Positions 5,477-23,770 of a stretch of DNA of 64,000 bases are shown here, in pieces. The stretch is taken from NCBI GenBank assembly GCA_029218825.1, contig JAQXSC010000075.1, positions 1 to 64,000 on the forward strand, read 5' to 3'. The stretch comes from Oscillospiraceae bacterium. GTDB taxonomy: Bacteria; Bacillota; Clostridia; Oscillospirales; Acutalibacteraceae. Under the pieces are notes generated by a model. That model had not been told where the DNA came from. It saw nothing but the letters and a program-made list of their open reading frames with translations, and made no database searches. Every line of letters begins with the position of its first letter. Positions within the stretch are counted from its first letter, which is position 1. The position numbers and the translations under genes are program-made.

Positions 5477-8400
5477 ATGAACTTTTTACTAAATGTTTTA
5501 GAAAAAACAGACAGTTTCAAGGCAATAAAAAAGGCTTTGAAACCCAAAAGCAAAATTTGTGCAACGGGACTTACGGAAATACACAAGGCAACAATTATAC
5601 ATTCGCTCTGTCATTTAAAAAATGTCAGGGCTTTTTGTGTTGCACCGGATGAGCAGAAAGCGCAGACTTTGTGCAATGATTTATGCACAATGGGTACAAA
5701 GGCTGTGTTCTACCCTACACGTGATTTTGTGTTCAAGGAAATCAGCGGTAAATCCAGAGAATATGAACACCAAAGGCTTAATGTACTGTATAAAATGCTT
5801 ACAGGTGATTATGACGTTGTAGTAGCCTGTATTGACGGTGCAACTCAATATACAATGCCTAAAGATGTGCTTAAAAACGCAGTTCTTGATATTAAAGTCG
5901 GCACTGCTATATCCACCGATTTCTGCATAAAGGCTCTTACACTTTTAGGCTATCAAAGGTTTGACCAGGTTGACGGCAAAGGGCAGTTTTCCTTACGTGG
6001 CGGTATTCTCGACTTCTTTATGCCTGACAGCGATTATCCCATAAGGGCGGAGTTTTGGGGTGATGAAATTACCGACCTTAACTACTTTGACGTTGAAACT
6101 CAAAGGAGAACAGATAAGGTTGAACAGGTTATCCTTACCCCATCTGCTGAAATTGTAATTGATGACAAAGAGGCGCTAAAAGATAAAATCCTTAAAAAAG
6201 CATCATTACTGAAAAAAGAAAACCAGCAAAAAGCAAAGGAAATTCTAATTAAAGAGGCTGACAGTATCGGTGAGGGATTGAGTATTTCCGCCATTGATAA
6301 ATTTATAGGTCTTGTTTACGAAAAGCCCTCTACCCTGCTTGATTACTTAGATGACAATTCCCTGGTATTTTTCTCCGAATACAATGCTGTTCGTGACAGG
6401 GCAAAAGCAACAGAGTTTCAGTTTAAGGAAAACCTTGCCGATTACTTTGCCGACGGTACTTTGTGCAGAGGATTTGAAACCTATTCAATGGACTTTAAGA
6501 GTTGTATGGAAAGGCTACAGGAATATCCTGAATTATTTATGGATTTATTTGCAAGTAGCACTTATGATTTTCCTCTTAATGAATTGGTGTCCTTCTCTGC
6601 AAAACAACTTGGATTGTGGAACGGCACAATTAAATATATTGAGGAGGATTTGCAAAGTTATGCAGAGCAGGGATATTCCGTAGTAATACTTGCAGGTACT
6701 GAAAAAGGTGCGTCAAACACAGCGGATAACCTTAGGAAAGCAGACTTCAACGCACAGTATGTTAAAAGCCTTGAAAATGTACCTGAAAAAGGTATCTTTG
6801 TTATGCCGGGGGCATTATCCTCAGGCTTTGAATACACCTCAACTAAATTTGCCCTTATAAGTCAAGGACTGTCAAACAGTTATAAACCTACAAAAAAGAA
6901 AGTAAAACGTAACCGTAACGGACAGGAAATATACAGTCTTTCGGAACTTACAAAAGGCGATTACGTGGTACACAGTACACACGGAATCGGTGTGTTCGGC
7001 GGTATTCAAAAAATGGACGTACACGGAGTTACCAAGGACTATATCAGGATTGAATACGCAAAGGGCGATGTGTTATATGTTCCTGTTACCCAACTTGACC
7101 TTGTTGCAAAATATATAGGCCCTCGTGAGGACAGCAGAGTAAAGTTGAACCGTTTAGGGGGTACTGAATGGCAAAAAACAAAGAGCCGTGTTAAAGGCTC
7201 TGTTAAGGATATTGCAAAGGAACTTATGGAACTTTATGCAAAGCGTATGCAGTCAAAAGGCTTTGCATTTACAGGGGACAGCGAGTGGCAGAGAGATTTT
7301 GAGTTAAAGTTTGAATACGAGGAAACTCCTGACCAATTAAGATGTGCCGAGGAAATCAAAAACGATATGGAACGGATTCAGCCTATGGACAGACTTCTCT
7401 GCGGTGACGTTGGATTTGGCAAAACCGAAGTTGCTTTAAGGGCTGCATTCAGATGTGTAAGTGATTCAAAACAATGCGCTCTCCTCTGCCCTACCACAAT
7501 CCTTGCATGGCAACATTACCAAACGGTACTGAAAAGATTTGAAGGCTACCCTGTAAGGGTTGAACTTTTATCACGTTTCAGAACTCCCAAACAGCAAAAG
7601 GAAATTATCAAGAAACTTGCGTCAGGGGACGTTGATATGATAATTGGTACTCACCGATTAGTCCAAAAAGACGTAGTTTTCAGAGATTTGGGACTTGCAA
7701 TAATCGACGAGGAACAGCGGTTCGGTGTTGCTCAAAAAGAAAGATTTAAGGAACTTCGAAAAAATATTGATGTGCTGACTTTGTCGGCTACTCCTATCCC
7801 CCGTACACTGAATATGGCTATGAGCGGAATCAGGGATATGTCCGTTCTTGAGGAAGCCCCACAGGACAGACATCCTGTTCAGACCTATGTGCTTGAACAC
7901 GATAACGCGGTAATCAACGAAGCTATCCGCAGGGAAATCAGACGTGGCGGTCAGGTATTTTACCTATACAACAGAACAGATACAATCGAGGCTAAATCCG
8001 CCGCAATAAGAGAGGAAATTCCGGAAGCGAAAATTGCTGTGGCTCACGGTCAAATGGACGAAAAACAACTGTCGGAAATCTGGCGACAAATGTTGGAGCA
8101 GGAAATCAACGTGCTTGTATGCACCACTATTATTGAAACAGGGGTGGATTTGCCCAACGCAAATACATTAATAATTGAAAATGCCGACAGATTAGGACTT
8201 TCACAACTTCATCAGATACGAGGAAGAGTGGGGCGTTCAAGCAGACGTGCATATGCATACTTTACCTATCCACCACGCAAAGTACTGACGGAAATTTCCA
8301 CAAAAAGACTTAATGCAATAAGAGAGTTTACAGAGTTCGGTTCAGGATTTAAAATCGCTATGCGTGACCTTGAGTTAAGAGGTGCAGGAAATATTATGGG

Positions 8401-11222: not shown

Positions 11223-11684
11223 CTATCTGAACGCAATTAACATATACTGGGCATATTCCTGATTAAGACTGTAAATTGAGCCGTCCTGCACAGTATCTGT
11301 TTCCTGCAAAATAACCGTATCCTTTGAAGTTGAAATTCCGCCTGTTGTACCGCTTGGAGTTACAACACCTGCGTTCACTTTTGTGTAACTGCCCTGATCC
11401 TGACAAAAGGGTGCGTTTTTCTTAAATATCATTACCATACTCGGCACAAACCCTAATTTTACATTCAACGTAGCCGTACCTGTACCGTAAATTGTGTGAA
11501 TTACAAAAGGCGATTGCACCTTTGTTTTTTCATCTTCTGTCAGGTGAATATTGCCGTCGTTTACGTGGTTACCAAGCACTCTGTCGATAACCGTATTGTC
11601 ATAAACAAAGTCGGTACGTTTCGGTTTATCGCTTTCAATCCAACTGTTTAAACCTAAGTTTGATGTCTTATTTGTAGAACTCAT
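11223..11684 (-). CDS. Short tail fibre / tail appendage protein
   Basis: 153 aa; last gene of the cluster after the gp48-like gene; N-terminus (NKTSNLGLNSWIESDKPKRTDF) like phage fibre attachment segments. Confidence 0.55.
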   Translation of the reverse strand: MSSTNKTSNLGLNSWIESDKPKRTDFVYDNTVIDRVLGNHVNDGNIHLTEDEKTKVQSPFVIHTIYGTGTATLNVKLGFVPSMVMIFKKNAPFCQDQGSYTKVNAGVVTPSGTTGGISTSKDTVILQETDTVQDGSIYSLNQEYAQYMLIAFR

Positions 11685-11687
11685 ATT

Positions 11688-12263
11688 TTATCCTTTCTTC
11701 TCTAATCTGTTAATTTGGCTCCAAGTGTAATCGTAATTATCCATAAGGCTGTATGTTAAATTCTTGCTGTCAATATCTGCCCACTCAATTCCGCTGAAAT
11801 ACACGTTGCAGTTAAGGTGCGCCGGTAAGGCGAGTTTTATCTCCTTAATTATCCACGCTTTGTCATCTCTGTTATAAGAGCCGTCAATGCATATATTCAT
11901 TTCACTTTCCCAAGGCATTTCAAGTACATCATAGTTATACACGCCTATAGATGACAGAAAATTTTGGAACTTTGATTTTGTAAAATCGTTATCTCCAAAT
12001 GTTTTTCTTATAATCAACATTTTCCGCCTGTCCTCTGTAGAATAATCACTTCTCACTGAGCCGATTACCTTTTCCCTGTTTTCAATTCCATAAGTTTCGG
12101 CACTTGAAATAAAGCACTCCTTTAACACACGTTCAAGGTTTTCTTTGTGTCTGTCCAAAGCGCAACTGTAGGCGCAAATTTCATAATATATATTCTTGCC
12201 CTCTGAAATATCGTACAGGTTAAGGGGTGCAAGTTTTTGTGAAATTGAAGTAAGTGTATCCAT
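11688..12263 (-). CDS. Baseplate protein, gp48/YmfQ/XkdU-like
   Basis: 191 aa, immediately after BaseplateJ; size and position as in PBSX/Mu-type clusters. Confidence 0.6.
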   Translation of the reverse strand: MDTLTSISQKLAPLNLYDISEGKNIYYEICAYSCALDRHKENLERVLKECFISSAETYGIENREKVIGSVRSDYSTEDRRKMLIIRKTFGDNDFTKSKFQNFLSSIGVYNYDVLEMPWESEMNICIDGSYNRDDKAWIIKEIKLALPAHLNCNVYFSGIEWADIDSKNLTYSLMDNYDYTWSQINRLEKKG

Positions 12264-12265
12264 TA

Positions 12266-13330
12266 TTAAACCTCCGAAATGTAGATCGTTTCCAGAGATG
12301 CATATGAATTTTCAGGAACACTGAAACTTGAATTTGCATAGGACGCCCACCTAAAATCATACACGCCCTCAACGCCGATAATCTCTGCTCCCAATTTAGT
12401 ACCAAGTACACTTTCGCCGATTGACAGGGAATTGATGTATTTATGCAACTGACTTATTACTTTTTCTTTTACAGTATCATAATCATAACCGTCTTTAAGT
12501 TTAACGGAAAAGGTCAGAGTTATACCATACTGTTCGGCAGGAAATACCTTAACGTCAACATTAAGTTCCCTTTCTGTATCCATAAGTCTTTGAACTTTTG
12601 ATACAAGACTTTGAGATGGAGTGGTTTTGTTGGAGTCAATATACACATCAACCGTACCCACACCCCTTACCTTTGGCACAACATTTGCGTCGGTAACGCC
12701 TGACACAGACATAGCAAGTTTTTTATAATAAGCCTTGTTAGTGCCGTTGGATACTGAAATATATGTATCGAGTATTCTTTTTCGCAAGTCCTCGTCGCTT
12801 TCCCTGTCTGCGCCACCGGAAAAGCCCTGGGTATTTGTTACTGTTTCGATATTGTTTACAGTAGTTACGATTACGTTAATCTGCTTTGCGGAAATATTAC
12901 TGTCCTTACCGCCCTGTTCCGCAGTACAGTTTACCGTTACCGACGTATTTCCTGCAGGCAATATGCTCTCCTCATCTGTAACAAATCTATAGGCTTTTGT
13001 GCCTGAAGTTGAAACTATTGTACCCTTTGGAATTACAATATTTTCCTCAATGGGCAAGGTAATATAAAACTTTACCTTTCCTGTAGCCTTTACGGATTCT
13101 TTTCTTGTTAAACCTCTGTCAGATGCGTGTAAATCCAAATACTCCCCTATCGCTGTTTTGGCAAACATCTGGTTTTTAATAAACTCAAGATTTACTTCAT
13201 CCTTGTAGATTTCACCTGCAAGTACTCTCATTCTTATATCAATATCCGATAATTCCTGCACCTTGTTATTTGACAATCTGAAATATTCCTCTTTCATTCT
13301 GTTAAGAATATCATTATAACTATCCATCAA
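12266..13330 (-). CDS. Baseplate J-like protein (XkdT/gp47)
   Basis: 354 aa; FSGGADRESDEDLRKRIL motif typical of Baseplate_J family. Confidence 0.85.
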   Translation of the reverse strand: MMDSYNDILNRMKEEYFRLSNNKVQELSDIDIRMRVLAGEIYKDEVNLEFIKNQMFAKTAIGEYLDLHASDRGLTRKESVKATGKVKFYITLPIEENIVIPKGTIVSTSGTKAYRFVTDEESILPAGNTSVTVNCTAEQGGKDSNISAKQINVIVTTVNNIETVTNTQGFSGGADRESDEDLRKRILDTYISVSNGTNKAYYKKLAMSVSGVTDANVVPKVRGVGTVDVYIDSNKTTPSQSLVSKVQRLMDTERELNVDVKVFPAEQYGITLTFSVKLKDGYDYDTVKEKVISQLHKYINSLSIGESVLGTKLGAEIIGVEGVYDFRWASYANSSFSVPENSYASLETIYISEV

Positions 13331-13667
13331 TTATCACCTCTCTGTGTATTTCATCTTTTCCGTATGTAACAGCAATCTGTATGATATATTTATCTTCCTC
13401 GTTTCTTATGTTTTCTGCCTTTACAAAAACTCCTTTAGATCCTACAAACATTTCATTCATCAGTACTTCAAGGGTCTTGAGTATTTTATCGCTGTTAAAA
13501 TCCAAATCCGCGGTATTTATTCCGCAATTTCTGTTATAAAGGAAACTCCCTTTTGGAATTTTTGTGCCTATAATAATCTGTTGCAGTATTTCCTCTACGC
13601 CCTTTACTGTTATGGGATTTCCGCTTTCATCAAGGAGAATATCACCCTTTTCAATCTTAATATCCAT
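13320..13667 (-). CDS. gp25/XkdS-like baseplate wedge protein
   Basis: GDILLDESGNPITVKGVEEILQQIIIGTKIPKGSF; TGATG overlap with upstream gene supports the start at 13667 rather than 13742. Confidence 0.7.
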   Translation of the reverse strand: MDIKIEKGDILLDESGNPITVKGVEEILQQIIIGTKIPKGSFLYNRNCGINTADLDFNSDKILKTLEVLMNEMFVGSKGVFVKAENIRNEEDKYIIQIAVTYGKDEIHREVIIDG

Positions 13668-14002
13668 CAGACAATCTTCTTTCCGTTTATATAAACATAG
13701 CCGTCGTTTTTCAAAAGAATCGACGCTCCTCCTGATGAACACAGCATAAGTTCACCGGGTTCAAGGTCCCGGTTACCGGCCAATACTCCCAGGCAGATAT
13801 CTCCGTTGCTTGTGGGCAAAACGATTGACTTTTCTCCGAGGGTCGGCACATAAGTAATCCCGTAAGGGGCTAAAATGGGAATATTTCGAAACTCACTTGA
13901 TGCGTTCACCTGAACCTTTCCGTCAAATGTACCGCCTATGTTTCCCTGTTCGGACTGACCTTTTGTTATAGAATTTTTAGTTACATAATTCATTAACCAC
14001 AT
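13667..14002 (-). CDS. Tail spike / baseplate assembly V (gp5/XkdR-region) OB-fold protein
   Basis: 111 aa; GGTFDGKVQVNASSEFRNIPILAPYGITYVPTLGEKSIVLPTSNGD resembles gpV/Gp5 OB spike. Confidence 0.6.
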   Translation of the reverse strand: MWLMNYVTKNSITKGQSEQGNIGGTFDGKVQVNASSEFRNIPILAPYGITYVPTLGEKSIVLPTSNGDICLGVLAGNRDLEPGELMLCSSGGASILLKNDGYVYINGKKIV

Positions 14003-14003
14003 A

Positions 14004-14933
14004 CTATCTCTCCTTTTTCAATAATACCTTTGTAAATTCGCCGTTGCTGTTTAAGGCGTAGCATATTCCGCTGACATACAGGTTTTCAATTATTCCAAGA
14101 TGCCTGTCCTTAACCTTTGCCCTTGAGCCGATAATATCAAGATAACAACCTAAACAGGTCAGGGATAATTCATAGGAACTGTCTATGGAATTATTTATGA
14201 TTTTATCTGCAACACGCAAATCGGAATTTGCCGTAGCGTCAAAATATCTTTCTCTTTTTATTTTGCGGTCTTTGGCAGTATCATTTGTAATTTCCGTTGT
14301 GTAATCGCCCTGTGCCGAAGTCTTTGCCCAAACCGAGGAAATAAGTTGACAACGCCTGTTATTTTCCGTAACAGAAATATAATTAATTCCCTCATCACTT
14401 CCGAAAGTTATTTCTTTATCCCTTTCAAGTCCGTTAAAATTTGCAGTTCCGTCGCTTTCAATCCTCGGTATTTTGCCGAAAGTCTGAACACAAAAATTAC
14501 TGAACGCCTGCCAATTTGTTGAGCCTTTGAAAACATTAAAACTGCCTACAAGAGATTGATTTTCTCCCTTATATTTCTCAATTCCGTAGGGCTTTAAATG
14601 ACGAGAAAAAAGAACAGAAGTTGAGGGGTTTATGTAGTTTGCCGGTTTGCTTTCGTTGTCAAGGAGAACAGCCGCCATACTTCGTGCAATTATTTTTGTA
14701 TATGCACCGCTTTTGTTTGAAATTGCCTGTTGTTCATCTACAATCCCCTTGAACACGATTTCATCATTTTGTTTTACCTGTATTTTATCAAGTTCCGAAA
14801 GACCTTCAATAAAGGGAGATACCGCAGTTAAATCATCTGCCGGAACATCCTCCTCCTGATTAATTGTTACACTTAACGGCTGGGGAAGTATTATATCCTT
14901 TCCGTAAATATCAGTTGCAATAAATGTCAGCAT
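14004..14933 (-). CDS. Tail hub protein, XkdQ/YqbQ-like
   Basis: 309 aa between LysM and spike genes; late-control-D-like hub character. Confidence 0.65.
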   Translation of the reverse strand: MLTFIATDIYGKDIILPQPLSVTINQEEDVPADDLTAVSPFIEGLSELDKIQVKQNDEIVFKGIVDEQQAISNKSGAYTKIIARSMAAVLLDNESKPANYINPSTSVLFSRHLKPYGIEKYKGENQSLVGSFNVFKGSTNWQAFSNFCVQTFGKIPRIESDGTANFNGLERDKEITFGSDEGINYISVTENNRRCQLISSVWAKTSAQGDYTTEITNDTAKDRKIKRERYFDATANSDLRVADKIINNSIDSSYELSLTCLGCYLDIIGSRAKVKDRHLGIIENLYVSGICYALNSNGEFTKVLLKKER

Positions 14934-15445
14934 ATCCTTATTTTTTCCCCTTTTTCTAATTCATCAATCCACTTTACCTGCGGATTTATCGGCACTAAAT
15001 TTTCAATGGGAATATCATACATATAACTTATATCCCAAAGACTTTCATTGTCCCTTACATAATGGTAAACCTTATTTTCCGCAACCTCTGATTTTGTCAT
15101 ATCCTCAACAAATTCAAAGGAATATGTAACTAATTTTTCTGTAGGCTCACATACAAGTTCTATCTTTTTGAAATAAGCATAAAAGGGCAAAGTATCAGGT
15201 AAAGATAATACACCGCTGTCACCTTGCTTTTGAAGATTTACAAGTCTGTTGTACTGCTTTAGGCAATCCTCACCAAACAGTTTCCCTGTACCTGTTACAA
15301 CCCTTGCTTTTGCGCCTATATCCTGAATAACATTTTTCCCTTTTGGAATTATCTGTTGACGGATACTGTTTTCCGCAGTCACTTTCAAATGCTCCGGATT
15401 ATGCCTGAAGGAATATCCTTTATATCGAATGTTTGATACAATCAT
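14927..15445 (-). CDS. LysM-containing tail/baseplate protein, XkdP-like
   Basis: 172 aa; C-terminal YHYVRDNESLWDISYMYDIPIENLVPINPQV LysM. Confidence 0.8.
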   Translation of the reverse strand: MIVSNIRYKGYSFRHNPEHLKVTAENSIRQQIIPKGKNVIQDIGAKARVVTGTGKLFGEDCLKQYNRLVNLQKQGDSGVLSLPDTLPFYAYFKKIELVCEPTEKLVTYSFEFVEDMTKSEVAENKVYHYVRDNESLWDISYMYDIPIENLVPINPQVKWIDELEKGEKIRIC

Positions 15446-15573
15446 TTTGCTTTTGCCTCCTGTTCCTCCTGCAAGGCTCGGTTAAATCTTCTGCTGTCCT
15501 GCTCAAAAATTCGGCTTAAATTTTCTGCTTCAATAATTGAAATTTCTGTTTCCATTACATTTGATTCTGTCAT
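15442..15573 (-). CDS. 43-aa small helical protein (candidate mini tape measure / assembly factor)
   Basis: MTESNVMETEISIIEAENLSRIFEQDSRRFNRALQEEQEAKAK; GGAGG SD, ATGA overlap with the LysM gene start; absent from the supplied ORF track because of its size. Confidence 0.7.
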   Translation of the reverse strand: MTESNVMETEISIIEAENLSRIFEQDSRRFNRALQEEQEAKAK

Positions 15574-15929
15574 TTTTCCTCCTTGCAACTTGCTGTAATT
15601 TCAATCTTTTTTGCGAGTTTTCCTGATGAATTTATGTAGGTTTCCACGGACTTTGTAATGCAGTTTTTGTAAACTGTTTCCCTGTTTGGTAGTTTAAAAG
15701 TTATATCGCAACCCTCATCAAAGCCTGTAAAATCCTTTGCGTACTGTCTTATTGTGATAATATAATGACTTTGTTCACCTGTGACGGCAATAGGATTACT
15801 GCTCAGAATTTCATAGGCGTATTTGTATTGGGAATTGTACTTTACTTCAAAGTCAAATACACCGCCTGCAAGTTTGTCATCAACCCATATAGTAATGTCC
15901 TCTTTTTTATATACCCTGTTTATCTCCAT
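15570..15929 (-). CDS. Putative tail tube protein
   Basis: 119 aa; beta-rich; between tail terminator and LysM genes. Confidence 0.5.
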   Translation of the reverse strand: MEINRVYKKEDITIWVDDKLAGGVFDFEVKYNSQYKYAYEILSSNPIAVTGEQSHYIITIRQYAKDFTGFDEGCDITFKLPNRETVYKNCITKSVETYINSSGKLAKKIEITASCKEEK

Positions 15930-16361
15930 TTATTTCTCCCAACAAAGGCAAAAATCAAGTCTGCAACTTATCTCCCTGTAAATTGCACCTACATTTTCGT
16001 CATAATTTATCGGCCCTACCGATGATTTTTCTATAATGTGACTTTCGTCTGCGTCTTTTAATGCCTCATAAATATTTATGGTAGCCTTGCCTAAATCCTC
16101 GCCGTTATTACTCTTACCGGAATACACTCTGATATATAAGTTCAGAGAATACATATCACCCTTGATTGTTTCGTCAAAATATCCGCCGATAAAATCCTGT
16201 GACTTATTTAATTCGCCTACATTTACAACTGCAATCAGTTTGTCACTGTAGGCGTTTGCAATATTATTGTTATAGGCTTTTACAAAGGTAATATTATCTT
16301 GATTAATATTTCTTTTTACGTCCTTAATTAAGGTTTCGATTACTCTGTAAATCTCACTCAT
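15930..16361 (-). CDS. Putative tail terminator/completion protein
   Basis: Position after head closure; ATG at 16361 with GGAGG SD (track start 16409 is upstream). Confidence 0.5.
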   Translation of the reverse strand: MSEIYRVIETLIKDVKRNINQDNITFVKAYNNNIANAYSDKLIAVVNVGELNKSQDFIGGYFDETIKGDMYSLNLYIRVYSGKSNNGEDLGKATINIYEALKDADESHIIEKSSVGPINYDENVGAIYREISCRLDFCLCWEK

Positions 16362-16773
16362 AACTGTCCTCCGACTGTTCTGTATGGGCGGATAATACCG
16401 CCCATACATACATTTTTTGTCCTGCTAAAATATAAGTACCGTTTGATTTTGTAATATACTTTTTTCCGCACATCTCAACAACTGCTCCACCGCATTTATC
16501 CAAAACTACATCAGGACCTGTAATCAGTAAGTAGTGGCTGTTGTCAAGTTTTCCCAAAGGAATAGGTTTTATGTTATAGTAGGTTTTGTTTTTTGTATGA
16601 AGTGGCTCTATAAAACCTTTAGTCCTAATAGTATTACCCTTTTCGGTAATCTTAACAGTACTGCCGTAACGGTTAAGTATATAATTCATTACCTTGTTCA
16701 TATTTACATCCTCTTGAATAAAAAAGTTGAGGTTGTAATAATATCCCCTATCTCCGACATTTCCTTTTTCCAC
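16354..16773 (-). CDS. Putative head-closure / connector protein
   Basis: Position between head-tail adaptor and tail terminator; likely start at an internal Met (MNKVMNYILNRYG). Confidence 0.45.
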   Translation of the reverse strand: MEKGNVGDRGYYYNLNFFIQEDVNMNKVMNYILNRYGSTVKITEKGNTIRTKGFIEPLHTKNKTYYNIKPIPLGKLDNSHYLLITGPDVVLDKCGGAVVEMCGKKYITKSNGTYILAGQKMYVWAVLSAHTEQSEDSYE

Positions 16774-17057
16774 ATATCCTTGGCTTCTTTTACTCTGTCT
16801 TTGTTTTCTGTTACAGAAACATCTCCTACTCTGAAACTGTTTTCTGTACTCAGGGAATATAGAACGTACTTATAATATGCGTAAATTCCTGACGCTTTAT
16901 CTAAACGTCTTTTGTCATTATCGGTTAAGTTGTCCTTTGTTACAAGTGAATAGACGTAATCTGACGCGTCCTTTATAACCTGAAACCACTTTGATACTTC
17001 TTCATCTGTAAGTCCGGACACCAACTTAAATCTGTCTAAAGTAATGTTAAAATCCAA
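16704..17057 (-). CDS. Head-tail adaptor (gp6-like) protein
   Basis: 117 aa, follows major capsid gene; short helical protein. Confidence 0.5.
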   Translation of the reverse strand: MDFNITLDRFKLVSGLTDEEVSKWFQVIKDASDYVYSLVTKDNLTDNDKRRLDKASGIYAYYKYVLYSLSTENSFRVGDVSVTENKDRVKEAKDMWKKEMSEIGDIITTSTFLFKRM

Positions 17058-17069
17058 GGTATCACCTTA

Positions 17070-18080
17070 TCAGTAGGAAAGAGCCTTTGAAGATTCCTTA
17101 AAGATTTTTGCAAAACCTGCTGTGCAACTGATTGCCGCACGTTCAAGTTGACGGTCAATTAGTTTGTCGTAATCGGTAACAATATCTCCTGCCTGTACCA
17201 TTTCGAGAGCGCAGTTTTTGTCAAGACCGATTATTTTACCTGATGGGATTGACGGAGTATGTAAAAGAGTTGCACCAAGAGGTGTAACCATTTTACCTGT
17301 ACCCTGGAAATTAAGACCTGCGTTGCTGTCCTTCATTTCTCCCATTGACAGAATTTTCTGCATAGCGTCTGTAGGCGCAAGAATTGTGTTAAGTTCATAT
17401 GGGTTTAAATCAGCCCAAAGTTTCAGTAAATCCTTGTAGGAAATATCACCTGAGTTTTCAACATCAATTACTGCGCAGGGGTTATCGTTGCCGTCACCAT
17501 TCAGCAACACGTCAACTGCGTCCTTTAACTGTGCACGTCTAATATATGCGCCAATCTGATTAAGTGTTACCGTGAAAAGGTCAAGTCTTTGGAAACGAAG
17601 TGCCTCGTATGATGACACTAACATTCTGCCTCTCTTGTGAAGTTTTACGAGGTTTTCCTGTGTTTTTACTACTGTCTGCGGAATTTTTGCACCCTCGGAA
17701 ACAACCTTTAGAGTTTTGTCGTCCTCTGATGGAACAGATGCAATAGAACGGTAGTCCATACCCTCAATATTTGTAACCGTAGCCACAATATCAGGGATAA
17801 TATCAGCCTGTTCCATACCCTGCTGAACTGCACGGCTCACATATTCAGGGAAAAGTGCCGCAGAGTTACTTGTCTGGAAAAACTTTTCCACACAGTCACT
17901 GCCTTTTCCGGATACCTTAATATCAAATCTTTTTAACTGTCTGCCGAATGCGTCAAGTCCCTCAAGTGAAGTACCTGCATAGTTTTCGGATGGGTCAAGT
18001 GTTTCAAGCACATCGGTAAGGCTTTTACCTCTTGTCTGATACATACCCTTTTCAATAGAAATGTTTTCAAAATTTGCCAT
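17070..18080 (-). CDS. Major capsid protein (HK97-like)
   Basis: 336 aa; follows protease and decoration genes; RRAQLKDAVDVLLNGDGND and C-terminal capsid features. Confidence 0.75.
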   Translation of the reverse strand: MANFENISIEKGMYQTRGKSLTDVLETLDPSENYAGTSLEGLDAFGRQLKRFDIKVSGKGSDCVEKFFQTSNSAALFPEYVSRAVQQGMEQADIIPDIVATVTNIEGMDYRSIASVPSEDDKTLKVVSEGAKIPQTVVKTQENLVKLHKRGRMLVSSYEALRFQRLDLFTVTLNQIGAYIRRAQLKDAVDVLLNGDGNDNPCAVIDVENSGDISYKDLLKLWADLNPYELNTILAPTDAMQKILSMGEMKDSNAGLNFQGTGKMVTPLGATLLHTPSIPSGKIIGLDKNCALEMVQAGDIVTDYDKLIDRQLERAAISCTAGFAKIFKESSKALSY

Positions 18081-18093
18081 TTAAAATTCCCCC

Positions 18094-18426
18094 TTAAAGA
18101 ATAAATCCTACTGTATTAGTTGTTGAATAAATTACCAAGTACTGTCTTGCGTTAGTATCGGTTTTTGCTGTTGTACTGTTGTTTGCGCAAATACCTTTGT
18201 AGCCTACCGCAATCTGTGCAGTTGCAGGTACTTCAACATAACCTGATAACTGAACAGCGGCATAACCGTCACGAACACCTACGCACACGCCTGTAATCGC
18301 ATCTCCTGTTGCACAGGGGGATACTTTACAGTTACCGCTTACCTTTACTAAATCGCCCTCTTTTACTGTACTCTCTGCTAAAAATGTTGCTACGTTCTCA
18401 CCATAGCCTTTGAAATCTACGTTCAT
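18094..18426 (-). CDS. Capsid decoration protein (DUF2190-like)
   Basis: 110 aa; EGDLVKVSGNCKVSPCATGDAITGVCVGVRDGYAAVQLSGYVEVPA. Confidence 0.7.
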   Translation of the reverse strand: MNVDFKGYGENVATFLAESTVKEGDLVKVSGNCKVSPCATGDAITGVCVGVRDGYAAVQLSGYVEVPATAQIAVGYKGICANNSTTAKTDTNARQYLVIYSTTNTVGFIL

Positions 18427-18437
18427 ATAAACCTCCG

Positions 18438-19397
18438 TTAAATTTTAAATTCTGTATTTGTATTTTTTGTTTCAGACTTTTCTTTGAAAAGTTGTGGTTT
18501 TGCCGGTAAAAAATCGGCAGATTTTCTGCTGTATGCAAGTTTGAACTCTTTGAGTTCATCTACGCTTAAATGCTCTGCTACTGTTTCCATGGTTTTTCTT
18601 GAAATTTCCGGTTGAACAATGGCCGAGTATTTTAGCACGTCGGCGATTAATGAGTTACGGTACATAACTCCGTCAGCCGCCTGTTTTTTTAGATTACCAA
18701 TGTAATCCTTTAGTTTTTTGCTATCATTTTCTGTCAGTGTAATAGCCTCACTGTTGTCAATAGACTTTAAAATATCTGTCATAGTCAAATCCTTTCTGTT
18801 ATAAGCCTTGATTACTCCGGCTTGTCTTTGTGCAGGGATAGCCACAAAACTCCATTCATAGGCGTCATAGGGATTTACAAGTTCACCGTAGCATAACTTG
18901 TTGCCATAGGTTTCACCCTTAACGTGACAACACTCCGCTGAATTAATATCCTTGCCACAAATACTGCAACGTGTTTCCTCAACTGCACATCCTACGCTGA
19001 CTTCTTTGGCTATACCGCTGTCAATGGCTAAAATCAAATCCTTGTTTTTGTCGCTTATAGGCATATACGCCCTTGCCGTCAACCTGAAATAATCGTCGCC
19101 AAGACTGTTTGTTTTACCCTGAACAGCCTCCACACTGCAACTTATAATACGTGCCGTCTGATTTTCCGCCTTTGGGTTGTGGTCAAAAATACCTGTTTTG
19201 CCTACAAACAACTCCTCAAGTTTTGACAGACTTTCTACTGTAAATCTCTCAAAATCTCTGTCAATATCATTGTCGCAGAGTACTACGGAAAAAACGTAAA
19301 CCTCCTCTTCAGAAAGTTCTCTGCGAGAATACTGATTGATTAATTCAAGTTCACCTTGCTGAATTTTTCCGCATTTTATAACTTCTCCTGTTTTCAA
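18438..19397 (-). CDS. Prohead protease/scaffold (XkdF-like) with Cys/His motif
   Basis: 319 aa; FDHNPKAENQTARI..., SVGCAVEETRCSICGKDINSAECCHVKG, helical C-terminal scaffold-like part. Confidence 0.65.
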   Translation of the reverse strand: MKTGEVIKCGKIQQGELELINQYSRRELSEEEVYVFSVVLCDNDIDRDFERFTVESLSKLEELFVGKTGIFDHNPKAENQTARIISCSVEAVQGKTNSLGDDYFRLTARAYMPISDKNKDLILAIDSGIAKEVSVGCAVEETRCSICGKDINSAECCHVKGETYGNKLCYGELVNPYDAYEWSFVAIPAQRQAGVIKAYNRKDLTMTDILKSIDNSEAITLTENDSKKLKDYIGNLKKQAADGVMYRNSLIADVLKYSAIVQPEISRKTMETVAEHLSVDELKEFKLAYSRKSADFLPAKPQLFKEKSETKNTNTEFKI

Positions 19398-20551
19398 GCC
19401 TCAACCTCCATTTCTGCTTTTGGTATTCTTTGTTCAATTTCAATGGCTTGTGCATTGTTAAGACGTGCCTGTGAAAGTTCAAGTTCGTCCTGTAGGTTAA
19501 TCAAATCCCACTTAACCTCAATATCGGTGTTAATCCCATTGAGCCTTAAATACATATTTGCAATTTTTGAGATTACCGGAGTAACCAGAGAACGGTAATA
19601 CTCAAGCTCACTTGTAAGGATATCCGCCTGTTGAGTACTCATACGCTCGGTACTTGACCAACTCAGCCCAAGTACAAAGGGTGGCAGAGCAAGTTTTGCA
19701 ACAATCTGCTCAAGCAAATGTCTTATAGGTACATCACAATCTAATATCTGGTTATCTGCACCGATTACCTTTATATTCACATCGCCCACCGCTACAAAGT
19801 CGCAAACCTCCGTACTGCGCATAGCCTTGCTCCATTCATCGGCAACCTGCTGTGCCTGTTGAGTAGTAACCGAGGCTGAACCTGTATCAGGTTTGTATGT
19901 AACAGCATATCGGATATTGCCTACCCTGTCCCAGTTGTTGCCGATAGCATTAAATATCTTAATGAGTATTGAACTTACAAAGGGCAATCCCTGTAAAACG
20001 GATTTACCTCGCACGTTGTTAGGCTCAGGATTTAAAAGGGTAGCCATAATCAAATTCTGATAAGGAGCCGGAGTTAAGCCGTTTTCCTTTTTACACACAA
20101 TCAAATTCAGAGGATTACCGTCGTTTGTAATCTCAACATCGTTGAAATTTGCGTTATACAAGGCGGCAATATCAGAGTTATCATTTGTCAGTACTATCTC
20201 TCCCACAGCCTGTCCGTAGGTCAGCATTTCGTCAAGATAGGTTGTAATAAAGGGATAAATTCCATAGTTACCACCGGTAGTCAGAACACTCTCCAAAAAC
20301 CTGTTAAGTGGCTTTTGAGCAGATTTATCCTCTGTAACAACCTTGAAATTACCTATTAGTCTTATGGTCTTTTCAATGGCAGCGTCAATTATCGGCACAG
20401 CCTCTCGCAGACTTCTGTATAACTCAAATTCCGTTTTTGTTAAAGGTGTGTAATTGTTAATCAGCGAGAATGGGTGCTTTCCTGATGTAGTAGGCACAGG
20501 ATACACAAGCCTGTCATTCTCCTTAATTTTATTTCTTTTAAAGAAATTCAA
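19394..20551 (-). CDS. Phage portal protein
   Basis: 385 aa; between large terminase and protease; LREAVPIIDAAIEKTIRLIGNF, LEQIVAKLALPPFVLGLSWSSTERMSTQQADIL. Confidence 0.8.
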   Translation of the reverse strand: MNFFKRNKIKENDRLVYPVPTTSGKHPFSLINNYTPLTKTEFELYRSLREAVPIIDAAIEKTIRLIGNFKVVTEDKSAQKPLNRFLESVLTTGGNYGIYPFITTYLDEMLTYGQAVGEIVLTNDNSDIAALYNANFNDVEITNDGNPLNLIVCKKENGLTPAPYQNLIMATLLNPEPNNVRGKSVLQGLPFVSSILIKIFNAIGNNWDRVGNIRYAVTYKPDTGSASVTTQQAQQVADEWSKAMRSTEVCDFVAVGDVNIKVIGADNQILDCDVPIRHLLEQIVAKLALPPFVLGLSWSSTERMSTQQADILTSELEYYRSLVTPVISKIANMYLRLNGINTDIEVKWDLINLQDELELSQARLNNAQAIEIEQRIPKAEMEVEA

Positions 20552-20565
20552 TACATTTCCTCCTG

Positions 20566-21816
20566 TTATCTTCTGGCGGCAACTACAGAAAAGTTTGAAC
20601 CGCCCTCAAGAATTGTAGCCACAAAATATCGTATGTCGTCCATTGCATGGTCGTTTTCCTTTATAGGTACATCAAGCCCCTTTTCCTCCCAACGATACAG
20701 GGAAAACTCCCTTATACTGTCAAGACAGTTGTTGCAGATTTTTATTCTGCCCTCTTTCAAGGCTGTTGCGGTTTGCCGTATTCCGTTTAAAACGTCATTT
20801 GTGGCAGGAGTTACCGTATATTCTCCGTGACGTCTTATTGTTTCTATAAAAGATGCCGCTGACGGGTCTGCTGTGATAGTTGAAACTTTGCGGTTTCCTA
20901 TCAGTTCGCAAAGAGCCTTGTAATGCTCCTCGTCGGTTTTCTGATACCCTTGCTTTCGTGAATCAAAGTAATACTCGTCAATGCGATACCAGCAATTTTC
21001 TTTAAGCGCCCATAATCCAAATGAAGCAGGATTTACTGTTCCGTAGTCACAGGAAACAGCGTACCTTTCAAAGGGACCCTGTGGAACACTTACATAAGAG
21101 CTTTCTTTCATAAAAGGATAAATTGCTCCGGTCACCGCCACCCATTTTCCAAGAATAAACCTCTGATAAAAAGTACCTGTATATAGGGTCTTATATCGTT
21201 CAAGAGTTTTCTTGGATAGAGAAGGGTTATCCTCCATTGTAAAGTGGAGATACAGTGCGTTTTTTCTCTTTGCGTTTAATATCCAATTTCTGTAAAACCA
21301 ATGAGCCGGATACTCAGGGTTACAGTTAAACCAAAATGTGCTACCCTCAACAGAGCAACGAGCCAAAGCCTGTTCCACAAAGGAACGTGGCATCAATGCA
21401 ACCTCGTCAAACAACACCCCGGCAAGGGTCATTCCCTGCACCAAAGCGGCGCTGCTCTCATCTTTACCGCCAAATATGTAAATACGGTTTTCCCTGCCCT
21501 TATACCTTATTACAAGGAGATTTTCGCTGAGTTTTTCATTAACCTCAAAGCCTAAGGACTTTAGTGTGGACACCATTGGGGTAATTATATTTCTCCTTGC
21601 AGAGCGTATTGTTTTACCGCATATTGCAAAACTCTTTGACTTGAATTTGTAGAACATCCAGAAAACAAATGAAAGTGACATACAAAAGGTCTTGCCGGAA
21701 CGCACAGCCCCGTCACAGATTATTGCATCTCTGTGTGCATACCTGCTGCCTTTACACCACCAGGTCAAAACCTGCATTTGCTTTTTTGAAAATGGTTTAA
21801 TTTCCATTGGCATCAC
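20566..21816 (-). CDS. Terminase large subunit
   Basis: 416 aa; Walker A GAVRSGKTFCMSLSFVFW, Walker B GVLFDEVALMP, nuclease Asp motifs SCDYGTVNP, ITADPSAASF, DHAMDDIRYF. Confidence 0.93.
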   Translation of the reverse strand: MMPMEIKPFSKKQMQVLTWWCKGSRYAHRDAIICDGAVRSGKTFCMSLSFVFWMFYKFKSKSFAICGKTIRSARRNIITPMVSTLKSLGFEVNEKLSENLLVIRYKGRENRIYIFGGKDESSAALVQGMTLAGVLFDEVALMPRSFVEQALARCSVEGSTFWFNCNPEYPAHWFYRNWILNAKRKNALYLHFTMEDNPSLSKKTLERYKTLYTGTFYQRFILGKWVAVTGAIYPFMKESSYVSVPQGPFERYAVSCDYGTVNPASFGLWALKENCWYRIDEYYFDSRKQGYQKTDEEHYKALCELIGNRKVSTITADPSAASFIETIRRHGEYTVTPATNDVLNGIRQTATALKEGRIKICNNCLDSIREFSLYRWEEKGLDVPIKENDHAMDDIRYFVATILEGGSNFSVVAARR

Positions 21817-22264
21817 TGTTAAGAGTTTCTGCGCCCATCATAAGCGCATCATAAAAAGGAGTTGTATTTTCAAGGCTTTCGCAATCGTCGTTTAATTTTT
21901 CCAAGGCTTTAAACCTGTCAAAAAACTTGATTTCAATTTGCCCTTTTTCAGAACGCTTTATTTCGGAAACCATAAACAAGTCCATATTTTTCAAAGTTTC
22001 GCTGTCGTAGTCCTTCATACTGATAAGGCTTACTGCGTCAGCGATATTTCCCATAGCAAGGCGTTTAAGCCCCGACCTTGCAAGTTGTTTCAGGCTCTTG
22101 TTCTGTAACTGTGACAGCCTTTCAATCTCCTCCAAAATATCGTCACGGCAAATAAGTTCACTGCCGCCCTTTGACATTCCTGCAAAACTCTCCGCCTCTG
22201 CAATACTTCCTCTTTCAAGGAAACCTCTGCAAAAGGCTTTTTCTTTTTTTGTTAGTTTTTTCAT
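21797..22264 (-). CDS. Terminase small subunit
   Basis: 155 aa; LTKKEKAFCRGFLERGSIAEAESFAG N-terminal HTH typical of Terminase_2; directly upstream of TerL. Confidence 0.85.
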   Translation of the reverse strand: MKKLTKKEKAFCRGFLERGSIAEAESFAGMSKGGSELICRDDILEEIERLSQLQNKSLKQLARSGLKRLAMGNIADAVSLISMKDYDSETLKNMDLFMVSEIKRSEKGQIEIKFFDRFKALEKLNDDCESLENTTPFYDALMMGAETLNSDANGN

Positions 22265-22381
22265 TTAATCATCCTTTCATAACTTGGCTCTACAAACACC
22301 AAGAAAAAGTTGATAATTGCATTATTAAAGGCAAGTTTTAATAAAATAAATAAATTTTGGCAAAATATTTATGGTGATAAG

Positions 22382-23770
22382 ATGAAAAATACAAGTTTTG
22401 ACAGTCAAAGAGAAAAACTAAACTCCACTCTCCACTTTGACAAAAGTTTTGATATAGTGGAAAGGCAAATTCAAATTGCAAATAAAAAAGCCGCCCTGTA
22501 TTTTGTGGACGGTTTTGTAAAAGACGATATTATGGAAAAAATCCTTGAATTTTTCTACAAGAGCGTTAAGGAGGGGGACGTTGAAAGGGTAGAAGAATTT
22601 AAGGCTAATTTTGTACCATACGTTGAGGTCGATACAACTGATGATTTTGATAAAGTAACAACTATGGTGCTGTCCGGAGTTTCCGCCCTTATCGTTGACG
22701 GATTTGAAAAAGTTATACTTATTGACTCACGAACCTACCCTCAACGTGATACCTCCGAGCCTGAAAATGACAAGGTTATTTTCGGTAGCCGTGACGGTTT
22801 TGTGGAAACTATGGTATTAAACACCGCCCTTATACGCAGACGTATCCGAAGCGGTGATTTGCGTGTTGAGGCTTTACAGGCAGGAACAAAGTCGAAAACC
22901 GATATTGCACTTTGCTATATGGACAGCAAGGTGGATAAAATTCTTTTAGAGAAATTAAAAAACAGAATAAACACCATAAATCAAGAATCCCTAACTATGA
23001 GCAGTCAGAGTTTAATCGAGGCTATCTATCCCCACCGTTGGTTTAACCCTATGCCAAAGGTGAAAAGCACAGAACGGCCTGACACAACCTCTAATTCAAT
23101 TTTAAAGGGCAACATCGCCATAATAGTTGACAACTCCCCTACCGCATTAATTCTGCCAACCTCAATATTCGACATACTGGAAGAGGCTGACGATTACTAT
23201 TTCTCACCGGTTACAGGAACATATCTGCGAGTTGCACGATATCTTATAATATTTATTTCATTATTCCTTACACCGGTATGGCTGTTATTGCTGCAAAACC
23301 CCTCAATAGTACCAAAAGCATTACAGTTTACGCTGATTGACAAACCGCAGAATATCCCCATAGTTTTACAACTGATTATAATTGAAATCGGTATTGACGG
23401 ACTGCGTCTTGCTTCCCTCAACACGCCTAACTCACTTACCACACCCCTTAGCATAATCGGTGCTATCGCATTGTCGGACTTTTCCGTACAGGCAGGCTGG
23501 TGCAGTTACGAGGCTATTTTGTATATGGCTTTCGTTACCGTTGCAAATTACACGCAGCCTAACTACGAACTTGGTTACACTATAAAATTTTCAAGGATTT
23601 TTCTGCTCCTTATGACCTACTTCTTCAACGTAACAGGTTTTATTTTAGGTGTAATAATCGTTATATTAACAGCAATATGCAACCGAACATTATCGGGAAA
23701 AAGTTACCTCTATCCGCTGATTCCCTTTAACCCCAAAAAGTTAGCAAACAAAATAATCCGTATGCGCTAA
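22382..23770 (+). CDS. Spore germination protein, GerA/SpoVAF family
   Basis: RDGFVETMVLNTALIRRRIR, SPVTGTYLRVARY, multiple TM; MKNTSF start at 22382 preferred over 22310. Confidence 0.9.
   Translation: MKNTSFDSQREKLNSTLHFDKSFDIVERQIQIANKKAALYFVDGFVKDDIMEKILEFFYKSVKEGDVERVEEFKANFVPYVEVDTTDDFDKVTTMVLSGVSALIVDGFEKVILIDSRTYPQRDTSEPENDKVIFGSRDGFVETMVLNTALIRRRIRSGDLRVEALQAGTKSKTDIALCYMDSKVDKILLEKLKNRINTINQESLTMSSQSLIEAIYPHRWFNPMPKVKSTERPDTTSNSILKGNIAIIVDNSPTALILPTSIFDILEEADDYYFSPVTGTYLRVARYLIIFISLFLTPVWLLLLQNPSIVPKALQFTLIDKPQNIPIVLQLIIIEIGIDGLRLASLNTPNSLTTPLSIIGAIALSDFSVQAGWCSYEAILYMAFVTVANYTQPNYELGYTIKFSRIFLLLMTYFFNVTGFILGVIIVILTAICNRTLSGKSYLYPLIPFNPKKLANKIIRMR

Follow-up and report, generated by a model that had tools for sequence, protein, structure and literature searches.

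A probable domesticated, multi-locus gene-transfer-agent-like element with a dismantled contractile tail in Ruminococcus bromii and its relatives

The window analysed here is the whole of a 64,000-nucleotide stretch of DNA from an Oscillospiraceae bacterium (GenBank assembly GCA_029218825.1, contig JAQXSC010000075.1, positions 1 to 64,000). At 11223-22264 it carries 18 phage-type open reading frames (ORFs), all on the minus strand, running from terS, the small terminase gene, to a putative fibre gene. This locus is probably the operon that encodes the head, connector and baseplate of a multi-locus element resembling a gene transfer agent (GTA), domesticated and passed down vertically, whose tail derives by reduction from a contractile one; to judge from its genes, it looks like a built-in gene-transfer machine. 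More tentatively, and with somewhat less than even confidence, we suggest that the element is an order-wide GTA older than the families that carry it, that it has repeatedly evolved from a contractile to a nearly tail-less form (sheath lost, tape measure of about 28-79 amino acids), and that it includes a dispersed regulon under one trans-acting factor, among whose members a VapE/DnaD-like replication module may amplify DNA before packaging.

The host genus includes R. bromii, of which strains YE282 (locus L044) and 5AMG (L043) fall within it. The capsid gene is single-copy in 86 of 88 genus genomes (79 of the 81 of high quality). It is present in 81 of 121 genomes and 70 of 108 genera of the window's own family, in 73 of 149 genomes and 50 of 94 genera of a second family of the order (f22), and also in families f12, f13 and f6. 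Outside the order, only 4 of the approximately 275 other class members searched gave a capsid match (best 2e-56). Gene order is identical in loci L002-L081, which occupy several chromosomal neighbourhoods and often share one or both flanks (gerA/spm or mfd/prsA). Frames are open except for one internal TAG in each of two genomes, G007 and G422; across the genus genomes the capsid gene has a single internal TAG in total.

All 18 genes are under purifying selection, with dN/dS between the window and its nearest relative, L002, ranging from 0.03 (capsid) to 0.30 (the small ORF). Constraint is strongest on the head and terminase genes, the values for capsid and terS both being low (Table 1), and the Walker A, Walker B and nuclease Asp residues of TerL, which a first-pass annotation made from the DNA alone had reported as kept, are invariant across 119-122 sequences. 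A maximum-likelihood tree of TerL, portal, protease and capsid from 37 genomes was compared with that of the host gene mfd: 24 of 34 splits are common to the two trees, where shuffled labels give at most 3, and the Mantel correlation is 0.67, a value reached in none of 9999 permutations. The locus is thus, on this phylogenetic evidence, vertically inherited across families and so older than the families themselves. It is very hard to maintain that the locus is instead a recently trapped, decaying prophage remnant. The window has no visible integrase or repressor gene and tail genes are missing, as such a remnant would have it, but its frames are intact, dN/dS is low, the locus occurs order-wide and its tree agrees with that of the host, all of which contradicts this explanation, and we reject it. 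The first-pass annotation had favoured a retained over a decaying element, and had named att repeats, sporadic presence and frameshifts as the signs that would speak for a recent prophage. No att-like repeat surrounds the locus (shared direct repeats reach 11 bp at most), its presence is not sporadic, and its frames are open apart from the two TAG codons, so the earlier view is supported.

No sheath or long tape measure was found in any of approximately 66 genus loci, nor a sheath anywhere in the window's own genome assembly (G000). In the window, the tube gene and a 43-amino-acid ORF, which has an ATG start behind AGGAGG and ATGA overlaps with both neighbours, fill the whole interval between the terminator and LysM genes; sheath, chaperone and normal tape measure are all missing, a gap that the first-pass annotation had not remarked upon when it listed the 18 co-directional genes in what proves to be the right order. 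In approximately 66 genus loci, too, the space between tube and LysM is taken up by no more than a small ORF. Outgroup loci carry a sheath gene between terminator and tube: L102 from the same family (PF04984 8e-13 and PF17482, both over the cut-off), L110, L111, L115-L119, L121 and L083, a scaffold of virus-like particle (VLP) type. These sheath-bearing loci have a chaperone-sized ORF followed by an ORF of 96-215 amino acids directly before LysM, whereas in the sheathless loci the ORF before LysM has shrunk to 28-79 amino acids. Long and short ORFs have the same C-terminal motif, approximately (L/I)(S/D)xx(F/L)xxDxRR(Y/F). We infer that the short ORF is a shrunken tape measure, because its C terminus stays fixed beside the baseplate gene while its length drops with tail loss. 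Dollo parsimony gives 5-6 independent losses of the sheath. In L092, L123 and L125 the tube is undetectable and the baseplate kept; L087, L088, L090, L103, L104 and L124 retain the head module only, and some lineages keep head and hub. As separate observations, short repeated inserts between the particle genes inflate the spacing in L103 (773-10748, genome G092), and in L091 (G184) neither terS nor terL was detected in the 7.4 kb upstream of the portal gene (at 7446), a possible packaging-less head and baseplate variant.

These findings bear on the resemblance to PBSX of Bacillus subtilis (xkd), a contractile-tailed element that packages host DNA and kills by means of its tail. PBSX has the order head, connectors, tube, XkdP/LysM, hub, gp25, J and gp48, and the locus shares this order from head to gp48. 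PBSX also has a sheath, a chaperone and a long tape measure, which here are lost or vestigial, and its parts are not scattered as they are here; by the sheath and tape-measure tests, the locus is not PBSX-type. Of the two likenesses proposed in the first-pass annotation, that to GTAs is supported and that to PBSX fails at the tail. A domesticated PBSX- or tailocin-like particle that harms competitors, with DNA packaging incidental, would account for the shared gene order and for the retention of a contractile-type baseplate and co-regulated fibre/BppU proteins. It is nevertheless unlikely, given that a sheath lost 5-6 times and absent from G000 leaves nothing to contract, that selection is tightest on the head and terminase genes, and that some lineages retain the head module alone.

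The palindrome TTGCAT-N6-ATGCAA, its stems extending further, stands ahead of terS in 68 of 80 loci, together with a T-rich stretch and a TATA-like -10 element. A count of perfect stems over 1.35 Mb of loci gives 58, against 3.2 in all expected from shuffles, and 53 of the 58 lie at terS. In the genus genomes the motif recurs several times per genome, and a reversed control pattern is nearly absent. The spacing from palindrome to -10 is 18-20 nt at 46 of the 68 terS sites and 31 of 37 other sites, which would put the palindrome near -40, where a class II activator binds. Among 40 palindrome regions that were read (gene tallies partly by eye), about 10 sites precede lysis genes (SPP1-, holin_1- and holin_4-type holins, XhlA-like proteins, GH25 lysozymes and amidases), about 11 precede BppU/fibre-type proteins, about 10 precede helix-turn-helix (HTH) or replication-initiator-like proteins, and 3 precede a VapE-like helicase. 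The replication-type genes include VapE (PF05272 1e-50), HTH_36 and DUF6291/Phg_2220_C. In L257, L260 and L266 (genus genomes G027, G030 and G040) the palindrome also stands before genes whose products, assigned by eye, are an ATPase of RecF/SbcC type, an HTH protein resembling an excisionase and a RepA/AAA-like protein, hinting at a larger dispersed set of phage-type genes.

Within one genome the palindrome loops are alike even where the genes downstream are unrelated (1.11 versus 2.25 mismatches, p <= 1e-4). Between species the stems covary; they differ in some other genera and in a second family, although the layout there is the same. Loop sharing and stem covariation fit a co-evolving trans-acting factor. 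An alternative for this one step, possible though clearly the less favoured, is that the hairpin is an RNA terminator or attenuator and that regulation proceeds by read-through: the stem-loop is followed by a T tract, and stems that covary between species and differ between genera with the structure kept are what an RNA element would also display. However, both the constant distance of 18-20 nt from a TATA-like -10 and the loops common to unrelated loci within a genome fit better with a DNA site recognised by a trans-acting factor.

In G000 no perfect palindrome was found, and its sites were recovered with a relaxed pattern only. The second of these (contig C100, L321) precedes genes for an XhlA-like protein, a holin (phrog_297 1e-5) and an endolysin with CHAP and SH3 domains (PF05257 1e-7, PF08239 5e-8, phrog_9589 1e-18), and adjoins uvrA. 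In G068, a close relative, the same lysis cassette stands at this place, and the lysis cassettes of G016 and G022 also adjoin uvrA. No PF05105 holin was found in G000. A third site (contig C53, L320 4016-4908) precedes a 213-amino-acid DUF6883 protein and an 82-amino-acid ORF, which are candidates for further parts of the system. The L321 cassette means that lysis genes are missing from the window and not from the genome. The earlier statement that no holin or endolysin gene is present is therefore true of the window only, and the description of the locus as a minimal particle does not extend to the system as a whole, with lysis genes and palindrome sites lying elsewhere. Host control, already suspected from the window, gains support from the cis element common to several loci, and the holin/endolysin cassette in the same genome may be expressed under it together with the particle genes.

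The replication-type genes under the cis element could also be read as belonging to a satellite, a helper-dependent phage-inducible element or a dispersed phage that is still mobile, in which VapE, DnaD-like initiators and lysis genes would form one element moving its own genes. We regard this as quite improbable: the parts lie at separate host loci, the main locus lacks att repeats, is single-copy and has a phylogeny congruent with that of the host, and the uvrA neighbour of the lysis cassette is common to G000, G068, G016 and G022.

Returning to the GTA-like element, we propose that the palindrome, at about -40, is the target of a dimeric regulator that acts in trans and would switch on the scattered loci together. 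HK97-type heads would then assemble, and TerS and TerL would pack each of them with a headful of DNA, mostly from the host; this DNA would be taken up at random and passed on to other cells. Random packaging of short host DNA has a precedent in the tail-less capsids of Faecalibacterium (PMC12946183). The tiny tape measure would set a tube of one or two rings, and tube and baseplate would close the head. The co-regulated holin and endolysin would lyse the producing cell, after which the co-regulated BppU/fibre proteins could bind relatives and the DNA be released without contraction, in a podovirus-like manner. A speculative further step is amplification of DNA ahead of packaging, through the co-regulated VapE and DnaD-like genes.

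Several points weigh against this proposal. A particle, packaged DNA, a transcript and a transfer event are all unobserved, and most of the genomes compared are draft metagenome-assembled genomes. TerS still matches Terminase_2 over most of its length, so packaging could be specific, of the pac type. The head-gene and mfd trees have three well-supported conflicts, all local. Regulon membership is assigned from the cis element and gene content, the palindrome sites L312 and L306 look like chance, and the window's own terS palindrome is imperfect and lacks a clear -10. Finally, the palindrome also precedes VapE and DnaD/replication-initiator-like genes, which is unusual for known GTAs.

Parts were assigned by hidden Markov model (HMM) searches against Pfam and phrog, with AlphaFold2 and Foldseek used in addition for the tube (Table 1). 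Nearly all of the 18 ORFs overlap or are separated by gaps of at most 14 nt. The first-pass labels TerS, TerL, portal, capsid, decoration, tube, hub, J and gp48 are borne out by HMM or fold matches; support for gp25, spike and LysM is weaker, and the protease, adaptor, closure, terminator and fibre are named by motif, position or weak matches. The best PDB matches of the tube model are tail tube proteins, including those of a diffocin, phiCD508, lambda and RcGTA. A predicted-fold search of the protease candidate against PDB returned no match, and it is termed a putative protease from its conserved His73 and EVSVG Ser134 motifs. Judged by sequence, the packaging motor, portal, capsid, tube and contractile-type baseplate are intact.

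Table 1. Predicted features of the particle locus in the window.
Feature	Position	Strand	Evidence
terS, small terminase	21797..22264	-	PF03592 5e-9, phrog_51; dN/dS 0.05 vs L002
terL, large terminase	20566..21816	-	PF03237 1e-19, phrog_2 2e-51, PF04466; catalytic residues invariant in 119-122 loci
Portal	19394..20551	-	phrog_30703 6e-124
Putative head maturation protease	18438..19397	-	phrog_16951 2e-98 (unknown function); invariant H73 and EVSVG S134
Decoration-type head protein	18094..18426	-	phrog_4588 virion structural protein 1.5e-14
Major capsid protein	17070..18080	-	phrog_3922 8e-103, PF25209; dN/dS 0.03
Head-tail adaptor (by position)	16704..17057	-	Order conserved in genus loci; no strong HMM match
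Head closure (by position)	16354..16773	-	Order conserved; no HMM match
Tail terminator (by position)	15930..16409	-	Order conserved; weak HMM matches only
Tail tube protein	15570..15929	-	phrog_27038; AlphaFold2 pLDDT 87.7; top Foldseek matches are tail tube proteins, E to 3e-6
43-amino-acid ORF, proposed vestigial tape measure	15442..15573	-	C-terminal motif common with 96-215-amino-acid ORFs at the same place in sheath-bearing loci
LysM / XkdP-like baseplate protein	14927..15445	-	PF07157 1.5e-4 (above cut-off), phrog_184; LysM weak
Baseplate hub	14004..14933	-	phrog_177 6e-15
gp45-like baseplate spike	13667..14002	-	PF06890 0.0012 (sub-threshold), phrog_25991
gp25-like baseplate wedge / sheath initiator	13320..13667	-	PF10934 6e-6 (sub-threshold), phrog_120
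Baseplate J	12266..13330	-	PF04865 9e-56, phrog_6 6e-72
Gp48-like baseplate protein	11688..12263	-	PF10076 3e-11, phrog_521
Putative fibre / receptor-binding protein	11223..11684	-	Weak N-terminal phrog_33092; variable, present in only 20/85 loci
Palindromic cis element TTGCCT-TTAATA-ATGCAA upstream of terS	22317..22334	-	One stem mismatch, no clear TATA; sits where 68/80 loci carry the conserved element

The flanks are host genes, as first annotated. To the left are mfd and a gene for a secreted protein with TQAP repeats, to the right a divergent GerA germination gene (4e-138, window 22310-23770) followed by spmA/B-like genes. The GerA neighbour makes a link to sporulation control possible. 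By eye, a GerA-type gene was also seen bordering the locus in another family (L110 18751-19899), at the opposite end and in convergent orientation.

In IMG/VR, 406 viral-database contigs encode relatives of the capsid; the 80 that were kept (L127-L206) are mostly 4-15 kb long. Several hundred of these catalogued 'viruses' are probably the chromosomal locus misfiled. The locus with host flanks is also carried by scaffolds MT835508, MT835769, MT835952 and MT836604. Their origin in a study of DNase-treated VLPs (PMC8361208) is probable, and they are not taken as proof of packaging. One of them, MT835508 (L082, 16100-21765), is a VLP-type scaffold that has only the head module, which runs from terS to closure and is surrounded by host genes of ribosomal and rnf-like type.

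RcGTA and its alphaproteobacterial relatives are vertically inherited, single-copy, multi-locus elements co-regulated with lysis genes. The element described here appears likewise vertical, single-copy and multi-locus, and the predicted fold of the window's tube matches the RcGTA tube. RcGTA differs from it in the tail, which is of siphovirus type, does not contract and comes with a full tape measure, and in belonging to another phage lineage and another bacterial phylum. GTAs are well characterised mainly in Alphaproteobacteria, and very few are known in Gram-positive bacteria. The closest published system, compared by description and not by sequence, is FpGTA of Faecalibacterium prausnitzii, which forms approximately 40-nm capsids without visible tails containing 8.4-8.9 kb of seemingly random chromosomal DNA, is encoded by two operons and lyses cells in stationary phase (PMC12946183). 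The two systems occur in the same broad group of gut Clostridia and are near-universal in their genus. Each has an operon of about 10.5 kb that runs TerS-TerL-portal-capsid and lacks replication genes, is inferred to form particles with a short tail or none, and has structural and lysis genes at a second locus (PMC12946183). They differ in that FpGTA has its baseplate, fibre and lysis genes in the second operon, whereas here the baseplate lies in the head operon and the lysis genes apart; that paper makes no mention of R. bromii, and the sections consulted describe no shared palindrome, tape-measure reduction or order-wide host-congruent phylogeny (PMC12946183). A Faecalibacterium 16S probe gave no match among the f22 genomes. 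A search of the open-access literature for R. bromii with GTA or prophage found no paper.

R. bromii is a keystone starch degrader of the human gut. The present analysis describes a GTA-like element conserved in this species and in much of its order, maps where the scattered parts lie and identifies a cis element from which the regulon can be predicted. The passage from sheath-bearing to sheathless loci offers a natural series for the dismantling of a contractile tail, and the question of who packages the DNA of gut bacteria becomes directly testable.

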